From positions 1 to 31,824 of the IMG/VR virus record IMGVR_UViG_3300007539_000106: DNA of 31,824 nt, one strand, 5' to 3'. This DNA is from a virus. Made by a program: the position numbers and the translations under genes. Shown piece after piece: positions 8,163 through 24,908 of the stretch (position 1 is the first letter of the stretch; every line of letters begins with the position of its first letter). A model generated the notes under the pieces. That model saw only the letters and a list, made by a program, of their open reading frames with translations, was not told the origin of the DNA and did no database searches.

Positions 8163-8327
8163 ATGGAAGATATTATCTACAAATCAACAATCGGAACAGG
8201 AGGCTTTATAGCTACCATTGAACTAACTCCCGTGAACGAAGCTCTTGGTTTCTGCGTAGGTCTAGCGACCTTCATATATATGACTGCATCCGCAATCAAG
8301 GTTATCAGAGAACTCAGAAAGAAATGA
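8163..8327 (+). CDS. Small membrane protein, holin-cluster candidate
   Basis: 54 residues. One strong hydrophobic helix at about 26-46 (ALGFCVGLATFIYMTASAI) is followed by a basic tail (KVIRELRKK), a typical N-out/C-in single-pass protein. It overlaps the next gene by ATGA. It is the first of three consecutive small membrane proteins and could be a holin, antiholin or spanin-like component. Function is inferred from topology and clustering. Confidence 0.6.
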   Translation: MEDIIYKSTIGTGGFIATIELTPVNEALGFCVGLATFIYMTASAIKVIRELRKK

Positions 8328-8719
8328 CCCCTGAACTACTAGCTATGATCGGAGGCGGAGCCTCTGGTTTTATCTTTAAACTGATTGGACAGCTTGTCGC
8401 TAATCAGCAAGGCACTGTAGACGCTATGATCAAGAAGCAGTCAGCCGCTGACGAAAGCCATCAGAAAGCCGCTACAAGGGGCGGTGAGTGGGTCAGGAGG
8501 GTCATAGTATGCACTGTCCTGTTTGCGGTCGTTGTAGCCCCCTTTTTGTTGGCTCACAGCCCAGAGGGAGTTACCGTAGGGCAGGAGACATCTTCCTTTT
8601 TTGGTCTATTCAAGGGAATCAAGTATCAAACCCTCAATGGATACCTCATTTTACCAGAGGTTCGCCAAACAGTTTTAGCTATTGTTGGATTCTATTTCGG
8701 ATCCTCAACCATTAAATGA
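8324..8719 (+). CDS. Membrane protein, probable holin
   Basis: 131 residues. It has an amphipathic Gly-rich N-terminus (MTPELLAMIGGGASGF), a charged helical region with DESHQKAATRGGEWVRR, a transmembrane helix at about 62-79 (VIVCTVLFAVVVAPFLLA) and a second hydrophobic segment near the C-terminus (VLAIVGFYFGSS). Proteins of this look occur in many marine phages next to lysis or tail genes and are often annotated as holins. ATGA overlaps join it to both neighbours. The pore-forming role is inferred. Confidence 0.6.
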   Translation: MTPELLAMIGGGASGFIFKLIGQLVANQQGTVDAMIKKQSAADESHQKAATRGGEWVRRVIVCTVLFAVVVAPFLLAHSPEGVTVGQETSSFFGLFKGIKYQTLNGYLILPEVRQTVLAIVGFYFGSSTIK

Positions 8720-8871
8720 ATGAAATACTGCAGATCATCGCATCCCTGTGGCCAGTGTCAATCGGCATCATTACGCTCATTGTTGTGCTGGCTCGTATGC
8801 ACTACAATATCGAAACTCTCACGGAAAAAGTCAAAGTCCTGTTTGATTTCCACAATAAAAGAAAGGATTAA
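8716..8871 (+). CDS. Small single-pass membrane protein
   Basis: 51 residues with a hydrophobic helix at about 5-26 (LQIIASLWPVSIGIITLIVV), then a polar helical tail ending in Lys/Arg (HNKRKD). Its ATG overlaps the TGA of the probable holin gene. It is the third member of the membrane trio and may modulate lysis timing. No lipobox, so not a classical outer-membrane spanin. Confidence 0.6.
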   Translation: MNEILQIIASLWPVSIGIITLIVVLARMHYNIETLTEKVKVLFDFHNKRKD

Positions 8872-8877
8872 ATAATT

Positions 8878-8970
8878 ATGCCACAAGGAAAAGGAACATA
8901 CGGAAGTAAAAGAGGTCGCCCTCCAGTTAAAAAATCTATCCCCATAAAAAAGAAGCCAAAGAAGAAATAA
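8878..8970 (+). CDS. AT-hook-like 30-residue basic peptide
   Basis: 30 residues with, by my count, 10 Lys, 2 Arg and no Asp or Glu. It contains KRGRPPVKK, which matches the AT-hook core (a Gly-Arg-Pro flanked by basic residues) that binds the minor groove of AT-rich DNA. The ORF is short but its ATG is 6 bases after the upstream stop and its TAA overlaps the next ATG (TAATG), as for the other genes of this cassette. This supports it as real. DNA binding is inferred from the motif. Confidence 0.55.
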   Translation: MPQGKGTYGSKRGRPPVKKSIPIKKKPKKK

Positions 8971-9149
8971 TGCCAAAGAAAGCAAAAAGCGGAGGTAAGA
9001 TATGCCCAGCGGGCAAAGCCTGGGCTAGACGCACGTTTGATACTTATCCGAGCGCTTATGCCAACATGGCTGCATCTAAGTACTGCAAGGATCCCAACTA
9101 CGCGAAGGGAGCAAAGAAGGGCAAGTCAACCAGGAAGAGGGTTCGGTAA
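8970..9149 (+). CDS. Small basic Cys-containing protein, cassette member 2
   Basis: 59 residues, about 17 Lys/Arg against 2 acidic residues. The core KICPAGKAWARRTFDTYPSAYANMAASKYCK has two Cys (12 and 39) around an aromatic helix-like segment. The pattern is one I recall from small hypothetical proteins of marine phages. The C-terminus is a pure basic tail. TAATG overlaps join it to the genes on both sides. Possible roles are DNA condensation in the capsid or nucleic-acid binding; there is no direct proof. Confidence 0.65.
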   Translation: MPKKAKSGGKICPAGKAWARRTFDTYPSAYANMAASKYCKDPNYAKGAKKGKSTRKRVR

Positions 9150-9391
9150 TGGGCCAACTAGCACAATGGAGAAAACAGAATTGGGTTCGTATAGGCACTG
9201 ATGGATCCATCAAAGGACCTTGCGGAACGTCGAAGGATAAGAAAAACCCTGACCGTTGCCTGCCTAAAAGAAAGGCTCTTAGTCTTACGAAATCGGAGAG
9301 AGCAAGCACAGCTAGAAAAAAGAAAGCATCAGGAGCAAGAGGAAAAACAGTCGTAGAAAATACACCTAAAGCGAGAGTAAAAAGTAAATGA
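9149..9391 (+). CDS. Basic protein, DUF5872-like
   Basis: 80 residues. The first half (WRKQNWVRIGTDGSIKGPCG, then a Cys-containing KNPDRCLPKRKAL) resembles the DUF5872 family as I recall it: a WVRI.G..G.CG start and a DRCLP motif. The second half is a Lys/Arg/Ser/Ala tail. Members occur in large marine phages and viruses with no assigned role. It overlaps the next gene by ATGA. Assignment by recall, moderate. Confidence 0.6.
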   Translation: MGQLAQWRKQNWVRIGTDGSIKGPCGTSKDKKNPDRCLPKRKALSLTKSERASTARKKKASGARGKTVVENTPKARVKSK

Positions 9392-9639
9392 GTAAAAAAT
9401 ATAAACCTACAATAAGAGACATAGTTTTAGAAAAACAAATTTCTAAAGATGTAATTAATAGAAGCAAAACTCTCGATAAATTTACCAGAGAAATTATAGA
9501 AGAACGCAAAAAACGTAAAATTAAAGATTTTAAGCCAGCTAGAACAGCAAAAGAAAAGGCACTAATTAAAGAGGCATTGCGCATAGGTAAGTCTCCGTCA
9601 CAGTCAGGTGTAAAAACTAATTATGCTTTTCAAAAATAA
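9388..9639 (+). CDS. Basic helical protein, AT-rich gene
   Basis: 83 residues, mostly helical and strongly basic, with alternating Lys/Glu stretches (REIIEERKKRKIKDFKPART). Unlike its neighbours the gene is visibly AT-rich and uses AAA, ATA and TTA heavily, so it may be a later insertion into the cassette. Start by ATGA overlap with the previous gene. No recognised family. Confidence 0.6.
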   Translation: MSKKYKPTIRDIVLEKQISKDVINRSKTLDKFTREIIEERKKRKIKDFKPARTAKEKALIKEALRIGKSPSQSGVKTNYAFQK

Positions 9640-9660
9640 GAAAGCGCAAGTAAGAACTAA

Positions 9661-9897
9661 ATGAGGAAGGAACACAAAAGCAAAAAGGGCGGACTTACTG
9701 CCGCTGGCCGTGCCTACTTCAAGCGCAAGACGGGTGCTAACCTCAAGGCTCCCGTTACTGAAAAAAAGCCCAAGGGCAAAAGAGCAGCTCGTAGACGGAG
9801 TTTTTGTGCTAGAATGTCAGGTGTAAAGGGTCCAATGAAGGATTCAAAGGGTAGACCAACCAGGAAAGCTCTTGCCCTTCGCAGATGGAAATGTTAA
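9661..9897 (+). CDS. Small basic protein, DUF6321-like
   Basis: 78 residues. The order GGLTAAGRAYFKRKTGANLK, then a basic linker, RRRSFCARMSGVKGPMKD and a C-terminal RPTRKALALRRWKC is very close to the DUF6321 pattern I recall from cyanophages and other marine viruses. Two Cys (49 and 78) are part of that pattern. Function is unknown; the charge and conserved shape suggest a nucleic-acid-associated role. Confidence 0.7.
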   Translation: MRKEHKSKKGGLTAAGRAYFKRKTGANLKAPVTEKKPKGKRAARRRSFCARMSGVKGPMKDSKGRPTRKALALRRWKC

Positions 9898-9906
9898 ATT
9901 TAAATA

Positions 9907-10677
9907 ATGAGAAAACTAATCGCAACTAAACTTTTAGGTGCTGCAAAAAAAGTAGCTAAAAAAATAGATAAAAAGGTCGTTGCTTCTTTAACTGCACGCG
10001 CTAACAAGAAAGCAGGAGTAGCTGGAACTACTGCCAAGAGAAGCACTGCTGCACGCAAGGCAAATAAAGCAGCGCAGGCTCAAGTTAAGAAAGCATCTAA
10101 ACTCTTTCCCAAGAATCCGCAATCCAGAGCGAACGCCGTAAAAAAAGCTAAAGCAAGGGCTGGCGCTTCTGCGGCAAGACTAAAAAGGAGAGAAGCCGCA
10201 AGAAAAGCAGGTCTAGCCAATCAAAGAAGCGCTAAGAAAACCGCTAAAAAAATCTACAAGGGCACTGCAGCTGGAACTGGAGCGACTGCAGTCGGCGGAG
10301 GCGTTGCTGCTAGTCGAGGTGGCTCCAAGCCAAAACCCAAATCCCCAGCAAAACCCAAATCCCCAGCAAAGCCCAAGGGAAAAGCATTCGATGTTGCGGG
10401 TTTAAGGTCGGCCTATAATAAGGCGATAACTCCAAAGCCCAAGAAACCCCTCGGCCCTGAGAACAAAACGAACGCCAAGAAAAAACCAGTTAAGAAGGCA
10501 GTAAAAATGGCTAATGTTAAAACAAAGAGAGGCAGGTTCGGAGGTTCTGGTAAAACTCAAGTCCCTGTTGGTTCCTCTATCATTCGCAATAGAGACGGAA
10601 GCATTAAAAAGATAAACAAGCCCACTGGCGCAACCGCCAAGAAAAAGCAAAGCAAGTTCAAGAAAGGAAAAAAGTAA
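9907..10677 (+). CDS. Histone H1-like Lys/Ala/Pro-rich protein
   Basis: 256 residues; by hand count 60 Lys and 17 Arg against 5 acidic residues. Residues 1-120 are Ala/Lys/Arg-rich and helix-forming. A small-residue stretch with no charge (about 119-136) is followed by a Pro/Lys region with KPKSPAKPKSPAKPKGK (about 143-159) and ITPKPKKP, which are SPxK/TPxK-type motifs of eukaryotic H1 tails and bacterial H1-like proteins. The C-terminus is again Lys-rich. The likely role is DNA binding or condensation, in the virion or on host DNA. The uncharged stretch might instead insert into a membrane. Inferred from composition. Confidence 0.7.
   Translation: MRKLIATKLLGAAKKVAKKIDKKVVASLTARANKKAGVAGTTAKRSTAARKANKAAQAQVKKASKLFPKNPQSRANAVKKAKARAGASAARLKRREAARKAGLANQRSAKKTAKKIYKGTAAGTGATAVGGGVAASRGGSKPKPKSPAKPKSPAKPKGKAFDVAGLRSAYNKAITPKPKKPLGPENKTNAKKKPVKKAVKMANVKTKRGRFGGSGKTQVPVGSSIIRNRDGSIKKINKPTGATAKKKQSKFKKGKK
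10333..10368 (+). repeat. 18-bp tandem repeat, two copies, inside the H1-like gene
   Basis: AAACCCAAATCCCCAGCA occurs twice in direct succession and a third partial copy follows. It encodes the KPKSPA repeat and is in frame, so copy number can vary without breaking the gene. Confidence 0.85.
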
Positions 10678-10678
10678 A

Positions 10679-10879
10679 ATGAACCCAAGGAAAAAAATAA
10701 TTCAAAACGTAGTGGAGTACGGCGTTAAAGGTGTCAAGAAGATGATGAAACCTCGTCCGACTCCTGGACAGATTCGCAGGGAAGAAGTAGGCAGAATCAC
10801 TGGTATGAAACCTCAGAGCCCACTAGAAAGAATGAATGACTCCGCAAGGAAGGCATTCGCTCGACAAAACTTAAAGTAA
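10679..10879 (+). CDS. Small basic protein, cassette member
   Basis: 66 residues, Arg/Lys-rich, with KMMKPRPTPGQIRREEVGR in the middle and a charged helical C-terminus. It starts one base after the H1-like stop codon and ends on a TAATG overlap with the next gene. No recognised family. Its place among other basic ORFs suggests the same structural or nucleic-acid-binding role. Confidence 0.6.
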   Translation: MNPRKKIIQNVVEYGVKGVKKMMKPRPTPGQIRREEVGRITGMKPQSPLERMNDSARKAFARQNLK

Positions 10880-11028
10880 TGAAAAAGAAAATTGTAAAAA
10901 ATATCGTTACTGAAGTTTTCGGAAAAAAGTTGAAGGATCCTAAATTCAAAGGACAACTGCCCGATCAAGAAACTTTAAGAAAAATCACTAAGGATTATTT
11001 TAAAAGAAAAATTTTAGGTAAGGACTAA
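10879..11028 (+). CDS. 49-residue basic protein, cassette member
   Basis: 49 residues starting MKKKIVKNIVTEVFGKKLKD, about a third Lys/Arg. The ATG overlaps the upstream stop (TAATG) and its own TAA overlaps the next ATG, which supports it as a real gene despite the length. The N-terminus resembles that of the previous member (RKKIIQNVVEYGVKGVKK against KKKIVKNIVTEVFGKK), so the two may be diverged paralogues. Confidence 0.55.
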   Translation: MKKKIVKNIVTEVFGKKLKDPKFKGQLPDQETLRKITKDYFKRKILGKD

Positions 11029-11339
11029 TGAAAAGTAAGGCTCTTGCTAGCGCCCTGAGTAAGCTAACTAAGGTTGCCGATAAAACTAAACCAAAATTAT
11101 CGGGAGCTTCTTCGGGTGCGCGCAGAGGCAAGAGCAAGCAGTTAGAGTTCGACTACAAAGAAGAAGAAAAACTCCTTCTGGGCTCGCAGGGTAAAAAGGC
11201 AAGCGACAAGAGCACGGATCAATTGCTGAAAGAAATTTCAGATTTCGCACAAGGTAAAAAGCTCGGCGGTAAAACCGTGTCCCCTGAAACTGAAAAAGCT
11301 TATAGGAGTTTCTTTGACAGAACCATGCGAGAGCCCTAA
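11028..11339 (+). CDS. Last basic protein of the cassette
   Basis: 103 residues. It has a Lys/Ser/Ala-rich N-terminal half and a mixed-charge C-terminal half with ELDSLKEISDFAQ-like helical character (TDQLLKEISDFAQGKK). TAATG overlap with the upstream gene. The following fibre gene starts 13 bases after the stop. No family recognised. Confidence 0.6.
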   Translation: MKSKALASALSKLTKVADKTKPKLSGASSGARRGKSKQLEFDYKEEEKLLLGSQGKKASDKSTDQLLKEISDFAQGKKLGGKTVSPETEKAYRSFFDRTMREP

Positions 11340-11352
11340 AATGCAATAAAAC

Positions 11353-14091
11353 ATGTCAATTTCGCACAGAACAAATCGCTTAAAATTAGTATCAGCGCCC
11401 ACCGTAGAGCAGCTGCAGAACGGTCGTTTTCGTTTAACTTTTAACGCACGCCCTCTCAACCCGAGGGAAAGCTGGTACAACGCGAACAAGAACAGGATAT
11501 TTGCGGCCTTCGGCACCTTGCAGGACGCAGAGATGTCCATAGATGGAATCGGAGCAAGAACAGGTGCTACTTACTCGGATATGCGCCTTGTCGATGCAAG
11601 GACCATTCCAGATGGGGAAAGTTATTTAGTTCAGTTCACCTACGAGACCATTGGCTCTAGTTTCGTTCAGGTAAAAGATGATACGATATCATTCACTGAA
11701 AGTGGTCTAAGGAGAGTACAAAGAGAAAGTATAGCCGCTGCTGGCACTGCGTTTTCGCAGACTGTAGGCACAACAACTATTGATCATCAGATAAATGCAG
11801 AGACTGCAGTTGCTTGCCGTCTAGCAGCTTATGAAATAAATGACACCGATAGCTCAAGAACTGTAATTGCTACCTATGTAGAGGAAGGTACGCTCTCTCG
11901 GACGGAGGATTTTGTTGGATCGCAGAAAGCAATAGTAATTGAAGCAATAGGACCAGATCCTAGTACTCCATCTGATTACTCCCCTGCGAGCAAAGAGGAG
12001 TCCAACTTTGAGGGACTGCAGACGAATCGTTTTACTTTTTTAAAAGATAATGTAGTTCTTTCTGAGTCAGAGGACAAGGTAGGTGCGCAAAAAGCTATCG
12101 TTAAAGAAGTATTTAACGGAACTCCAGCTACTCCTGATGGTTATAGTATAGCAAGCGAAGAGAGTTCCAATGTAGCTGCTATAGCTACTAAGCGCTTCAC
12201 GTTCCTTAAGAATGGTGCAGTTCTTTCCAGCACTACAGAAGAAAGACAATCTGGATCTAATTCTACTGGAAAGGTAAGAATACAAACCGTAGAGGTGTTC
12301 AACGGGACACCAGCAAGTACAATTGGTGGAGTCAAGATATCCGAGCAGAAGTCCAATGTAGGCGCTATAGTAACTACAAGGGCTGTATTTGCCACTGGTT
12401 CTGGTGAAGTTTCAAGAAGTACAGAGACTCGCAACAATGGTAAACTTACCGTTACTACTGTCGAGGCACTTGGTACTGCGGGTACTGGTACAGGCACAGA
12501 AATTGAGGCCACTACAAGAGAAGAAAACGGATTTACTGTATTTCGCAATGTATTTGCAGAGGGAGTTGGTGAAGTATCGCGCACTACAGAAACAAAAAAT
12601 AATGGCAAACTTACCGTTACTACTGTAGAATCCTTGGGTAGTGCAGGTAGTGCGGCTGGGGTTGAAATTGAATCCACTACAAGAGAAGAGAACGGCTTTA
12701 CTTTATTCCGAAATACTTTCGCAGACGGAACTGGTGAAATATCTAGAACTACTGAGACTCGAAACAATGGTAAACTTACCGTAACTACCGTTGAAGCACT
12801 GGGTAGTGCTGGTAGTGCGACTGGGGCTGAGATTGAATCTACTACTCGCGAGCAAGATGGTTACACATTGTTCCGCAACGTGTTCGCTGAGGGAAGTGGT
12901 GAGGTATCCAGAACTACTGAGACTCGCAATAATGGCAAGTTAACTATAACTACCGTTGAGTCCTTGGGAACCAAGGTCGATGCGCCAGGAGATGTTGAAT
13001 TAGAAAGCACTGAGAGGCAGGAGAACGGATTCGTTTTATTTCGTAGCGTAAAAGCCTCAGGAGCAGGCGAAATATCTAGAACGGTAGAGACGAGAAATAA
13101 GGGTGCTTTGACTATTACTACCGTCGAGTCACTTGGTTCTGCTGGTTCTGCTGGTTCTGCCAGTGGAGTTGAGATTGAAGCCACTACAAGAGAAGAGAAT
13201 GGGTTCACTTTATTTAGAAATGTCTTCGCCGATGGTAGTGGTGAAATATCCAAAACTACTACTGGTGCCGATGCTTTCCTTCCACTAGGATGCAAAGAGG
13301 TAACCGAAGTTCACGTTGCAGAACCGATTCCAGAGCAACCGCCCAACAATGGAAGGTTAATTAGGGAATCGGTGCAGCAGCAAGATGGGTTCGATTTGCA
13401 CACAAGAACTTATCTAGAGGGAAACCTAACGGGAACAACCACAGAATACGAAGATTACGTAGAAGTAGAAATTCCAGGAGAGGTTACTCTGGAGACAGAA
13501 ACTGTTTCGTCTGGCGGTGATAGTGGAGAGATTGCTATTGTAAAGGTGCAGCCTAAAAGAATCGAAAGAAAAAAAGCAAACATCAAGATAGAAATAATAA
13601 AGGTAGAGCAAGGCGGGCAAATCCCGTCGATTGGAGATATAGCTTATGATCTAGGTAAAATTTCCTGCTCGGTTACTGCAACTAACATTCAGCGTTCAAT
13701 AGGGCCAGGATCAACCGTTACAATTGGGGCAGGAACTAATAACATTAATAGCGATACTGGATTTGTTGCTGATTTTAAAGTGCAGACAAGTGTAACTAAC
13801 TACCCTGGTCATTTTATTACGGGTGAAAAAACTAAAGAGGGTAAAATAAATTACATATCTAGTTCTCAGCCAGTAGCTTCTGGAAATGTTATTACTAGGC
13901 AGGAGGAAACAGTAGATAGAATAACTAAGTTAGTTGGCACTGGGTCCGACGAGTCAGACAAGTCAAGCTCCTGGAAAGAATCTGGAGTGATTAGCAGAAG
14001 GATTCGTCCTGTGCTGGCTGACCTTAAAGAAGGAGCTCCTGCTAAATACTACGAAGTTATAACAACAACAATAGGTACTTCAGGTTCATAA
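11353..14091 (+). CDS. Repeat-built tail fibre / adhesin-like protein
   Basis: 912 residues. An N-terminal domain of about 180 residues (possible virion attachment) is followed by eight tandem modules of 55-62 residues (about 182-632), a degenerate ninth, and a beta-rich C-terminal domain (about 690-912). Each module reads like SRTTETRNNGKLTVTTVE, then a Gly/Ala/Ser linker, an EI(E/S)TTREENGF(T)LFRN strand pair and a GSGEV end, suggesting short beta-hairpin units in an elongated shaft. The protein lies between the basic cassette and another fibre gene. A host-binding fibre is the likely role; the modules do not match a family I know. Confidence 0.6.
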   Translation: MSISHRTNRLKLVSAPTVEQLQNGRFRLTFNARPLNPRESWYNANKNRIFAAFGTLQDAEMSIDGIGARTGATYSDMRLVDARTIPDGESYLVQFTYETIGSSFVQVKDDTISFTESGLRRVQRESIAAAGTAFSQTVGTTTIDHQINAETAVACRLAAYEINDTDSSRTVIATYVEEGTLSRTEDFVGSQKAIVIEAIGPDPSTPSDYSPASKEESNFEGLQTNRFTFLKDNVVLSESEDKVGAQKAIVKEVFNGTPATPDGYSIASEESSNVAAIATKRFTFLKNGAVLSSTTEERQSGSNSTGKVRIQTVEVFNGTPASTIGGVKISEQKSNVGAIVTTRAVFATGSGEVSRSTETRNNGKLTVTTVEALGTAGTGTGTEIEATTREENGFTVFRNVFAEGVGEVSRTTETKNNGKLTVTTVESLGSAGSAAGVEIESTTREENGFTLFRNTFADGTGEISRTTETRNNGKLTVTTVEALGSAGSATGAEIESTTREQDGYTLFRNVFAEGSGEVSRTTETRNNGKLTITTVESLGTKVDAPGDVELESTERQENGFVLFRSVKASGAGEISRTVETRNKGALTITTVESLGSAGSAGSASGVEIEATTREENGFTLFRNVFADGSGEISKTTTGADAFLPLGCKEVTEVHVAEPIPEQPPNNGRLIRESVQQQDGFDLHTRTYLEGNLTGTTTEYEDYVEVEIPGEVTLETETVSSGGDSGEIAIVKVQPKRIERKKANIKIEIIKVEQGGQIPSIGDIAYDLGKISCSVTATNIQRSIGPGSTVTIGAGTNNINSDTGFVADFKVQTSVTNYPGHFITGEKTKEGKINYISSSQPVASGNVITRQEETVDRITKLVGTGSDESDKSSSWKESGVISRRIRPVLADLKEGAPAKYYEVITTTIGTSGS
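11896..13248 (+). repeat. Eight tandem modules of 165-186 bp within the fibre gene
   Basis: Module starts by my reading: 11896, 12061, 12226 (62 codons), 12412, 12577, 12742, 12907 (56 codons), 13075 (58 codons); the others have 55 codons. The three from 12412 to 12906 are almost alike at DNA level (e.g. CAATGGTAAACTTACCGT repeated at 165-base spacing). The outer ones are diverged. All length changes are multiples of three, so the reading frame is kept. Confidence 0.85.
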
Positions 14092-18560: not shown

Positions 18561-21500
18561 ATGGCAGGTAGAGATTTAACTCCAGAGGAGCTCGCGGAGT
18601 ATCGTCAACGCCGCGGATTGCCACCTGTTCAGGACGATATAACCGTAGCTGAACCAGACACTACAGGTGCACAGATCGCAGGATCTGCTGTAACTGAAAT
18701 CGGCGGCAACATCCTAGGTGAAATACTTACGCAGACCATAGGAAGAAGGATTCCTGACGCGGCAAAGAAGCAAGGAATACAGTTCCTTGGTAGGTTCCTA
18801 TCTGGAGCCGCAAGCAGTGCACTCGCGCAAAAGGTAGAGGGCAAAGAAGACCTGAGCTTGGGTCGTATGATTGCAGGGGGAACTGTCAACAATATGCTCA
18901 CGAAAGTAAAGGCTCCGTTGACAAGCCCAGTAGTAAGAGATGCAGCTAAATCTGCTGTTCTTGCGGGGTCGGAGAGAGTGATAGCAGATGCCATAGACGA
19001 GCAAGAGTTCAATCCCCTGGATGTAGCCATAGCCGCTGGCACTGGTGGATTGTTGGGCACTGCCGTAGGCCAGGCTCAGTACAAGTTCTCGGATGCGGAT
19101 AAGGTTGCTACTTTGATCGGAAAGAATGCAAATGAGATCGATGAAATCATCGCGAAGGGAGAAGTCGGCAAGGAGGATCTGAATGCATTGCTGCAGGATG
19201 CCGTAGGTGCACCCATAACGCAGAGACAACTGGATAGAACATCAGAAAGAATGATTAGGGAGCGCACAGCACAGGCACTGCAAAGTAGCCAGAACCCAGT
19301 CCCTAGGATGCTGTCCGATATAAAAAGTTTCATAGCTCCTACTAAGGCTTTGAAGGGAGTACGCAACTTTCGTGAGGACTATCTTAATTTTGCGGATAAG
19401 ATACAATCAGCAGAAGCTCTATCGACCAGGCTGCAGAATGCAATCGATAAGACCGTCATGTCCAAGCCTCATCTGGCTGAAGATATAAATGATTACCTGG
19501 ACGGCATGCCCCTTTCGGAGGCGCTGCTGGACGAAGGCATTGCTGGCGACCTGCAATCATTCAGGGCTATAGAAACGGAAGCACTTAGCGAATTAGAATC
19601 CATCCTGAAGGATTCCGCCGAGCTCGATTTCTTGGACGCAGATTCCAAGGCAGCAGTGCTCAATAGACTAGCAATAGTTTCAAAGAGTCATAGATCCTTT
19701 GATACGCAGCAGTACAAAGCCTTCACGAATAAAGAGTTCGTGCAGAATAAAATCTCCGAAGAAGAAGTCCTAGAAGAAGTTACGGGTTCTCTTGTTATGC
19801 AAGGGATTGACCCAGAAAAAGCGGCAAAGGATGCATCCAAGCACGTAAAGCACATCAAGTCCCTGTTCGCAAAAGCGACGGATAAAGGAACTGGACGAAG
19901 CAAGCAGGCGGACCTTCTTGTTTCTTTGCCTGGTCGCTTTGAGAAGGTGATAGGTGGGCATGCACCTGGGCCAAAAGAAAGGGCCTTCTTGGGAGAGGTA
20001 GATCAACCATTTTTAGCTAGTGGATTGAAGGCTCGTTTCAGAATTAGAGAAAGCATAAGGCACCTGGCGAACATGGAGTCCGACGTAAAACTGAAGCAGG
20101 GACTAGAAGAGGCTGGCTTGATAAGCACGGTTAAAACTGAGGATAGCATTGAGTTCAGTCCGAAATACACGCAGGGAACTGACGCGCAGGGCAATCAACT
20201 CTATGTGCCTTACGAAGCTGGAAAGGCCATACATAGATTGTATGAGACTGGTTTCAACAGGCAGGCCGCAGATGAAGCAAGCAATGTACTTGCTCAAATC
20301 TATGGAATTGGAGTGACTGGCTCTAAGGCAGCCAAGGTTATATTTAATCCTCCTTCCTATGCGGTCAATCTCATAGGCGGGCAAGCGTCCATGCTCAGTA
20401 ATGGAATCATACCTAACATAGGAAAAAATTATCGCGAAGGGGCAAGTCTAGCCTTCAGAGAGGTGCATTCGCTTTATAACTCAGGAGCAAAACTCAGCAA
20501 GGGCCAAAAGAAAATAAGCGACCCAGCCGTCAGAGAAAAAATATCCAACGATATGGCGGAGATGTACAAGTACGGAATCGGTAATGCTACTATAGCTGCC
20601 AATGAAGTCGCCGATGCCATTAACAACGGAAAAATGGGAGACATCGCAAGAGGTCTAACCGCAGGTGCTGGTAAACTTTATAGTATTACGGATACTGCTA
20701 CTAGATTCACAATCTGGAAGCACAACCAAAAAAGATTAACTGACATATTAAATGCAGGTGATGCCCTGTCGGCGAACAGGGATCAGATAAAAAGAATAGC
20801 AGCTGAAATAACAAACGACACCTACCAGAACTACGCCAGAACCTGGTCCCTTGGCAGGAAGTTATCCAGAGCTGGTATACTACCTCCATTCGTTACCTTC
20901 ACGCTGGAGCTAGCTCGCAATACTGGAAATCAAATTAGCTATGCATTAAGGATGATAAATGGCGATGCCTTCGCGCAGAAGTTCGGCATTGAATTGAATG
21001 AAACTTCCAGGGATCTATTAAGGGCAGAAGGATACAAGCGACTAATGTATCTTGCGGGAACTATGTCTTTGGCATATGGAGCTTCTTCTTTGGTTGGAGA
21101 TGCTATCGGAAAAATGTCTGGGAACGCGGGGGACAGAGTTGACCCCAGGGACATGGAGAGCTTCAGGTTCTTTTCACCTAGTTACATGCGCAACCAAGAT
21201 ATCGTTGCCACCTACAACCCAAAAACTAAAACAGGAACTTCCGCAGCGACAAGTTATCTATTCCCGCATACCATGTTCACTGGGCTTGTGAAGTCCGCAG
21301 TAGCTCAAGCGCAGAATCCTTTCATCGAAGCGGACGCAGAAAAGAACGTGCAGAGTGCGCTGGGCGCAGTTATAGATAATCTGGTGGGTGAAGGTACTTT
21401 CATCGGGCAGAATCTGTACAGAGCCCTGGATAACAGGGACGTGTACGGAAAGGTCATAACGGATAAAGAGGGGGCTGCTAAATTTGGAGCACTACTCAAG

Positions 21501-22274
21501 GAGTTCGCCTTCGAAACATTTAAGCCTGGTTTTGTTAATGAAGGATCCAGACTTTACAAAGCGTCCAAGGGGCTCGGGGATTATTCCGTAGAAGAAGTTC
21601 TCATGCGACAGATGGGTGCTAGATTGACCAAGGTTGACTTCAACCAAATGGCAAAGTTCAGGGTGCAGGAGTTCGTGCAGGGTTACTCAAACGCCAGAGG
21701 ATCCTACACCACTGACGCGAAGTACAAGGCGGACCAGTTAACCGAGGAGCAATTAGAGCAATCCTACCGACGGGCCGTGCAGCAGGCCGAGGTGTCCTAC
21801 GACAGGATAGCGGAGTCGTTCGAACGCTTGAAGGCATTCGGCTACACCGAAGAAGATCGCATCAATCTACTGCGCGAAGCTGGAGTGCGCAGCACGGATA
21901 TTTTTCGTATCGTTCGGGGTATGCAGTTCGAACCATTCCAGCGCGGAGTACAGAAGACCCTAGGAGAGCAATACACAGAAATCGCCGAGGGTAAGAACAG
22001 AAGAGAAACCCTCGCTGAGATACGTGCATTGCGCTCAGGAGACGCTCAAAGCAAGTTCCTGGCGGAATCCCTACAAAGGGAGCACAATCGCCGTATAAAC
22101 GACGAGAAGCGCGGTAGAACGCCTCAGGACAAGCTCCTGATGAACATGAGCATACTGGAGCGCGTACGTGTCCTGAAGAGCATGGGAGTGCACAGGAACA
22201 GGGCTCTGTTCAGCGAGATGAAGCGCAAGGGCGTTATTAACAAAGAAGTCGGTAAGCTCCTACGCAGTGCATAA
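18561..22274 (+). CDS. Large internal virion / DNA-ejection protein
   Basis: 1237 residues, the longest gene. It starts MAGRDLTPEELAEYRQRRGL. It is mostly alpha-helical with short Gly-rich hydrophobic segments (about 28-110) and a middle region (about 590-830) including KVIFNPPSYAVNLIGGQAS and SLGRKLSRAGILPPFVTFTL. That middle region resembles large polyvalent-protein domains (LPD38-type) of phage ejection proteins as I recall them. The C-terminus is charged and helical. As the last late gene it matches the T7 gp16 position. No lytic transglycosylase motif was seen. Its stop codon lies inside the opposing terminator. Confidence 0.6.
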   Translation: MAGRDLTPEELAEYRQRRGLPPVQDDITVAEPDTTGAQIAGSAVTEIGGNILGEILTQTIGRRIPDAAKKQGIQFLGRFLSGAASSALAQKVEGKEDLSLGRMIAGGTVNNMLTKVKAPLTSPVVRDAAKSAVLAGSERVIADAIDEQEFNPLDVAIAAGTGGLLGTAVGQAQYKFSDADKVATLIGKNANEIDEIIAKGEVGKEDLNALLQDAVGAPITQRQLDRTSERMIRERTAQALQSSQNPVPRMLSDIKSFIAPTKALKGVRNFREDYLNFADKIQSAEALSTRLQNAIDKTVMSKPHLAEDINDYLDGMPLSEALLDEGIAGDLQSFRAIETEALSELESILKDSAELDFLDADSKAAVLNRLAIVSKSHRSFDTQQYKAFTNKEFVQNKISEEEVLEEVTGSLVMQGIDPEKAAKDASKHVKHIKSLFAKATDKGTGRSKQADLLVSLPGRFEKVIGGHAPGPKERAFLGEVDQPFLASGLKARFRIRESIRHLANMESDVKLKQGLEEAGLISTVKTEDSIEFSPKYTQGTDAQGNQLYVPYEAGKAIHRLYETGFNRQAADEASNVLAQIYGIGVTGSKAAKVIFNPPSYAVNLIGGQASMLSNGIIPNIGKNYREGASLAFREVHSLYNSGAKLSKGQKKISDPAVREKISNDMAEMYKYGIGNATIAANEVADAINNGKMGDIARGLTAGAGKLYSITDTATRFTIWKHNQKRLTDILNAGDALSANRDQIKRIAAEITNDTYQNYARTWSLGRKLSRAGILPPFVTFTLELARNTGNQISYALRMINGDAFAQKFGIELNETSRDLLRAEGYKRLMYLAGTMSLAYGASSLVGDAIGKMSGNAGDRVDPRDMESFRFFSPSYMRNQDIVATYNPKTKTGTSAATSYLFPHTMFTGLVKSAVAQAQNPFIEADAEKNVQSALGAVIDNLVGEGTFIGQNLYRALDNRDVYGKVITDKEGAAKFGALLKEFAFETFKPGFVNEGSRLYKASKGLGDYSVEEVLMRQMGARLTKVDFNQMAKFRVQEFVQGYSNARGSYTTDAKYKADQLTEEQLEQSYRRAVQQAEVSYDRIAESFERLKAFGYTEEDRINLLREAGVRSTDIFRIVRGMQFEPFQRGVQKTLGEQYTEIAEGKNRRETLAEIRALRSGDAQSKFLAESLQREHNRRINDEKRGRTPQDKLLMNMSILERVRVLKSMGVHRNRALFSEMKRKGVINKEVGKLLRSA

Positions 22275-24554: not shown

Positions 24555-24908
24555 TTATATTATATTTGATTGTACTTTTTTCCAGTACTTCTTTGTTGTT
24601 TCTTTCTTGTATCCGTTGGGTCCACCATTGTGCACCCTGGATAAATCTTCTGCAGTTGGCTGTCTACCCAGGCGCTCCTCGGTGCAGTAGTGCAACATAT
24701 AAATTGTGAACATGTCAATTGAATGCTTCCGATTGAAGGCATCCTTGTGCGAGTATCGATCCTCCTGCAGTATTCTATTTACGTCCTGCACGTAGGCGGG
24801 ATGAATCTGCATGCACCCGTAGGCTTGCCCGTTGTCCCCGATTGCGGAATCGTTGCCTCCGCTTTCCACTATGATAATTGCTAGCGCTAATTGTATTATT
24901 GTAATCAT
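24555..24908 (-). CDS. Lytic transglycosylase-like endolysin
   Basis: 117 residues. IIIVESGGNDSAIGDNGQAY followed by GCMQIHPAYVQDVNRI is the typical SLT/goose-lysozyme-like opening: catalytic Glu at residue 15, then the GxxQ(I)HP segment. HNGGPNGYKKETTKKYWKKV is the closing motif. It would cleave peptidoglycan, for lysis or entry. The hydrophobic N-terminus is the first helix of the fold, though it might also act as a signal-anchor. It lies inside the replication unit, coupled to DnaB by TAATG, far from the membrane-protein cluster of the late region. Confidence 0.75.
   Translation of the reverse strand: MITIIQLALAIIIVESGGNDSAIGDNGQAYGCMQIHPAYVQDVNRILQEDRYSHKDAFNRKHSIDMFTIYMLHYCTEERLGRQPTAEDLSRVHNGGPNGYKKETTKKYWKKVQSNII

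Follow-up and report, generated by a model that had tools for sequence, protein, structure and literature searches.

What does a very basic, lysine-rich protein with the look of a histone H1 tail do among the virion genes of a phage? The question is raised by the gene at 9907-10677 of a 31,824-base virus record, the whole of which is called the window here. The capsid gene of this record is of the SU10 type (PF17236, E 1.9e-48), which would fit a short-tailed phage. The nearest named phage is Phage C75C1, with 64% identity over the capsid protein, and no relatives of the capsid protein were found in bacterial genomes. A search of the window for Rfam families and tRNAs found none. The initial annotation, made from the sequence, had taken the gene for an unusual histone H1-like protein that might compact viral DNA, neutralise charge in the capsid or alter the host nucleoid.

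The gene and its product

The frame translates without interruption into 256 residues with a pI of 12.0. The 60 lysines counted initially are confirmed, and they are accompanied by 48 Ala, 24 Gly, 17 Arg and 15 Pro, with five acidic residues (3 Asp, 2 Glu) and no Cys. What stands of the SPxK/TPxK-type repeats described earlier is two SPAK motifs, at residues 146 and 152, the only matches to S/T-P-x-K/R in the protein. TPxK does not occur, two or more matches are reached in 461 of 5000 composition shuffles, so that the count is not above what composition gives, and both SPAK are confined to an 18-bp tandem repeat (Table 1) that the relatives lack.

An uncharged stretch reported at about 119-136 occupies exactly those residues (GTAAGTGATAVGGGVAAS) and is the longest such run in the protein. 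It had been called odd, but its length is only mildly unusual, since runs of 18 or more uncharged residues arise in 291 of 5000 composition shuffles; the real signal is its conservation, described below. A transmembrane segment at 119-136 was considered and found to be unsupported, the best 19-residue hydropathy value being 0.64.

The N-terminal helix is amphipathic (moment 0.48, residues 3-20) and the protein is low in hydrophobicity. A structure model built from five sequences, of low confidence (pLDDT 59, pTM 0.24), shows helices at the N-terminus, extended disorder and two further elements, a short helix (163-174) and a hairpin (225-235); a viral fold search with it gave no usable match. 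The protein is best taken as a putative non-enzymatic polycation, mostly disordered and helical.

Table 1. Features of the basic island and of its largest protein (positions in the window)
Feature	Position	Strand	Remarks
30-aa basic ORF	8878..8970	+	net +12; first island gene
59-aa basic protein	8970..9149	+	phrog_27331 (KICPAGKAWARRTFDTYPSAYANMAASKYC)
80-aa basic protein	9149..9391	+	phrog_23735; related to N-terminal module of fused cyanophage proteins AIX33111 and S-SCSM1_29
83-aa basic protein	9388..9639	+	no family match
78-aa DUF6321 protein	9661..9897	+	PF19846, E 8.4e-28; two invariant Cys; compact three-helix model
Lys/Ala-rich protein gene	9907..10677	+	256 aa, net about +72; from translated ORF and composition
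256-aa protein, N-terminal part			leader 1-20; H1-like variable stretch about 41-108; conserved uncharged segment 119-136
256-aa protein, C-terminal part			SPAK linker; conserved motif FDVAGLRSAYNKA at 161-173; predicted beta hairpin 225-235; basic tail
18-bp tandem repeat, 2.6 copies	10331..10376	+	encodes KSPAKP repeats; both SPAK inside
66-aa basic protein	10679..10879	+	N-terminal leader (MNPRKKIIQNVV...)
49-aa basic protein	10879..11028	+	N-terminal leader (MKKKIVKNIV...)
103-aa basic protein	11028..11339	+	N-terminal leader (MKSKALASAL...)

Relatives and conservation

When all fetched loci were searched with a profile, three IMG/VR contigs were found to encode orthologues: L001, L087 (a contig also listed as L011) and L086 (also listed as L176). 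A more distant, fourth relative (L177:654-1352) fills the equivalent slot, immediately ahead of the gene that corresponds to 11353. It too carries the C-terminal motif VGSSIIRN-x-x-G-x-IKK, and BLASTP aligns it with the L087 protein at E 4e-11 and with the window protein at E 8e-10. A tblastn search of the 256-aa protein against 50,697 phage records gave no match, nor did a search of an annotated phage collection for the L177 relative.

That the frame is coding is supported by purifying selection in comparison with the L001 orthologue (dN 0.36, dS 0.98; dN/dS below 1). Conservation is very uneven along the chain. Most of residues 41-108, the histone-tail-like part, is missing in two of the four orthologues (L087 and L086). 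KTAK-x-IYKGTAAGTG is retained in all four close relatives, as are a version of the FDVAGLRSAYNKA motif and a KGKK end. Residues 109-136 are the most constrained part relative to L001 (dN 0.03, dS 0.55), and across the four close relatives no part is better conserved than the uncharged segment 119-136. As a side observation, dS to L001 is lower in the H1-like stretch (0.36) than in the N-terminal flank (0.82), the underlying numbers being small; separate exchange of the stretch could be the cause, of which these values give a hint.

Resemblance to histones

The likeness to linker histone H1 and to Hc1/HC2 resides in a Lys/Ala/Pro-rich, tail-like composition, and composition alone proves no kinship. 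When the H1, Hc1 and HC2 profiles were searched, zero family matches were obtained at E values up to 10. This holds for the globular winged-helix domain of linker histones (PF00538) and for the Hc1 and HC2 Pfam profiles, where HMMER filters may hide weak low-complexity matches. Sequence searches of Pfam, NCBIfam, PHROG and PDB gave no significant family match for the protein. The structure model shows long disorder, helices and a hairpin but no globular domain, and the SPxK motifs are few and unconserved. Homology to H1, Hc1 or HC2 was therefore rejected for want of a match to any such profile, and the kinship with H1/HctB-like proteins proposed in the initial annotation is unsupported, the more so as the H1-like stretch is absent from two orthologues. 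The histone likeness is a matter of composition, not of family membership, and a better description is that of a fast-evolving protein from an island whose basic proteins, common in marine phages, are probably virion-associated.

These results also bear on a host-directed role, in which the protein would act on the nucleoid or on transcription in the infected cell by H1-like silencing, as proposed for Hc1-like proteins. Lys/Ala-rich tails bind DNA in general, Hc1 lowers the synthesis of both DNA and protein in E. coli, and large aquatic phages are reported to carry an H1-like protein (PF07432) (PMC12619734). Such a role is nonetheless unlikely here: no Hc1, HC2 or linker-histone match supports it, the stretch that resembles H1 is unconserved, and the gene sits inside a structural block, whereas genes for takeover, unless their products are packaged, tend to be early.

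A nine-gene basic island

The protein is not the isolated oddity that it first seemed: its gene belongs to an island of a type common in marine phages, in which nine basic genes follow one another (8878-11339; Table 1), and it is the largest of their products. Most of these genes overlap or nearly so, and their summed net charge is about +189. Virion genes surround the island: the SU10-type major capsid gene precedes it, and the gene at 11353 follows closely. Net charge per residue ranges from +0.10 to +0.40 in the nine genes and is at most +0.05 in the other tabulated plus-strand genes.

For one island member at least 591 matches were confirmed in IMG/VR. Of the sequence entries fetched, 90 include a relative of the 80-aa protein; they partly overlap and hence count entries rather than independent phages. 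Their basic genes stand in runs with a median length of 4, and some of the longest runs are those of the window and its close relatives.

Some further features of such islands were noted. In a set of 41 sequences the two Cys of DUF6321 are invariant, and a pair of Cys is present in the 80-aa protein as well; the two related proteins of Methylophilales phage MEP402 have each lost the pair (loci compared: window 9661-9897 and 9149-9391; L089 4977-5282 and 5463-5699). The joint loss would fit a disulphide or a shared metal site. A search of the DUF6321 model against the PDB found no fold match. No homology is claimed between the 59-aa protein and the WPSAYA region of AIX33111, since they share only 5 identical residues (E 0.53). 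In like islands of many relatives (L113, L121, L130, L169, L171 and L172) a Lys/Gly-rich repeat protein occurs (e.g. MKAKGMKAGGK), and several of these proteins share a conserved C-terminus, VRGAGIARKGVRP.

Related modules in other phages

DUF6321 is found between the scaffold and capsid genes in pelagiphages and in a T7-like Synechococcus phage, and between the terminase genes in cyanomyoviruses. In the cyanomyovirus ACG-2014f, an 880-aa protein encoded between the terminase genes starts with a relative of the 80-aa protein (E 9e-08) and ends with DUF6321 (E 3.3e-24), with Lys/Ala-rich stretches between these end modules. The fusion of both modules in one chain suggests that they act in a common process.

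Evidence from purified particles comes from T4-like phages, outside the present lineage. ORF137 of S-CREM2 carries DUF6321 (E 3.5e-10) and its neighbour ORF136 is basic and Lys/Ala-rich; in CsCl-purified S-CREM2 virions mass spectrometry detected 8 unique peptides of ORF136 and 4 of ORF137 (PMC10665884 Table 3), the authors cautioning that carry-over is possible for some of the detected proteins. S-SCSM1_29 combines an 80-aa-type module (E 1e-05) with DUF6321 (E 3e-22), and is labelled virion protein in its record; the S-SCSM1 authors identified 45 virion proteins by mass spectrometry (PMC9602691), and to judge from the record the label presumably rests on those spectra. S-SZBM1 gp192 has DUF6321, yet it is unnamed in the text and table of the 30-protein virion study of that phage.

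The 256-aa protein shares the island and the basic character of these DUF6321 and phrog_23735 proteins, whose modules are both present in AIX33111, but it lacks Cys and has no sequence match to either; the DUF6321 profile (PF19846) does not match it, unlike its neighbour at 9661-9897.

The same surroundings would accommodate an assembly factor, that is, a transient, non-packaged helper of the head or neck (a scaffold or portal partner) with its charge serving protein-protein contacts. The gene adjoins head and tail genes, DUF6321 adjoins scaffold genes in T7-like marine phages, and a common leader, described in the next section, could bind one assembly partner. We consider this improbable: detections of DUF6321 proteins come from finished virions, and nucleic acid is the partner suggested by a net charge of +72 in a chain that lacks a conserved folded surface.

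A shared N-terminal leader

The 256-aa protein and the products of the next three genes start with MRKLIATKLLGAAKK, MNPRKKIIQNVVEYG, MKKKIVKNIVTEVFG and MKSKALASALSKLTK, and are unrelated beyond this leader of about 18 residues. The likeness was scored over the 18 residues that follow Met, as the mean of the pairwise BLOSUM62 scores, and compared with internal windows of the proteins in 1500 draws. The leaders of the four window genes score 10.7, against -0.8 for internal windows, and none of the 1500 draws reached this value. The score is 12.1 in L001 and 12.7 in L087 (0/1500 in each) and 9.7 in L086 (1/1500). In L177, three consecutive genes carry their own, different leader (15.0; 0/1500). 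Composition explains part of the similarity, because composition-preserving shuffles of the leaders also reach the observed score: 16 of 1500 in the window, 46 in L086, 42 in L177 and 0 in both L001 and L087. A matrix trained on the relatives ranks the four genes top among the window genes scored, a ranking that is not independent, as the training includes their orthologues.

By analogy with T4, the leader may be a signal that takes the last four island proteins into the assembling head. This is a reasonable hypothesis because the basic internal proteins of T4 are targeted by short N-terminal propeptides, through which they reach the head core (PMC9026906). An amphipathic membrane-binding helix would be consistent with the leader as well, and the likeness could alternatively stem from tandem duplication followed by divergence of the remaining sequence. 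No prohead protease was recognised in the window.

A broader and more speculative proposal, which we hold only tentatively, is that a marine lineage with the SU10 capsid uses a capsid-targeting leader of its own, Lys/Ile-rich and distinct from that of T4. It would be carried by several consecutive, otherwise unrelated basic proteins, co-vary within each phage, and bring DNA-binding proteins, in a set that can change, into the head. What is new and can be tested is that several proteins share a leader in a lineage whose capsid is of the SU10 type.

By eye, several cyanomyovirus genes beside DUF6321 start with peptides like those that target T4 proteins to the capsid (L095 2302-3015, L091 4362-4682, L092 4277-4594 and L093 3492-4294).

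A proposed set of internal virion proteins

Among the roles suggested initially, DNA compaction or charge neutralisation in the capsid is still the most plausible in general terms. In the form that we favour, and to which we give an even chance, the 256-aa protein and its small basic neighbours are a rapidly evolving set of DNA-binding internal virion proteins, similar to the internal proteins of T4 and possibly targeted to the head by the leader. Residence in the virion and binding to DNA are both inferred for the 256-aa protein, and its position among virion genes suggests late expression.

The process might run as follows: i) the protein would be made late, alongside the head and tail proteins; ii) its leader would help it to enter the assembling head; and iii) its Lys/Ala helices and tails would bind the packaged DNA electrostatically and neutralise part of the charge. 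The changeable H1-like middle part would supply charge without a fixed sequence, and the protein may be ejected with the DNA. By our own arithmetic, with an assumed copy number, 50 copies of +72 would neutralise a few percent of the phosphates in a 35-40 kb genome.

The internal proteins of T4 are small and basic, are present at about 300 copies per head and bind DNA at low salt (PMC9026906). Like IPI, IPII and IPIII, which are several per phage, poorly conserved and equipped with a common short N-terminal leader (PMC9026906), the present island has several small basic proteins (nine genes) and a common leader on otherwise unrelated ones (four genes in the window). The systems are likened by description, with packaging here presumed, and they differ in that the leader of the window genes is Lys/Ile-rich, no prohead protease was recognised and the major capsid protein is of the SU10 type. 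Another parallel by description is the set of 'DNA condensation' proteins of phAPEC6, several of which were found in one virion by mass spectrometry, although these are 30-42 kDa proteins of a jumbo phage (PMC7247149).

If the island genes encode internal head proteins, a common class of ocean viral genes would gain a role, and the leader would become a handle for studying how proteins are loaded into phage heads.

Least probable is a lysis factor whose cationic amphipathic N-terminal helix and Lys-rich body would disrupt the outer membrane in the manner of the PhiKT disruptin: some phages do breach this membrane with disruptins, short cationic amphipathic peptides (PMC12819732), the helix is of that kind, and three small membrane-protein-like ORFs lie directly upstream of the island (8163-8871), but the protein is several-fold longer than such a lysis peptide, is low in hydrophobicity and belongs to a structural island of nine such genes, modules related to island members were detected in virions, and the likely endolysin is encoded far away on the other strand.

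Other genes of the window

The last-named gene (24555-24908, minus strand, opposite to the structural genes) encodes a small lysozyme-like protein with an SLT domain (E 4.7e-08) and a hydrophobic N-terminus, possibly a signal-arrest endolysin. The gene that follows the island (11353-14091) encodes a 912-aa protein and contains a 165-bp tandem repeat (12401-12959, 3.4 copies, 75% match); its counterpart in L086 is 1895 aa, so that the length differs between relatives. A 1237-aa protein encoded at 18561-22274 could be a large ejected virion protein. Its match to an ADP-ribosyltransferase family (PF01129) is weak, at E 0.015, and falls short of the curated cut-off; Pseudoalteromonas phage vB_Pun_Y3 has a distantly related protein that is annotated as an ADP-ribosyltransferase.
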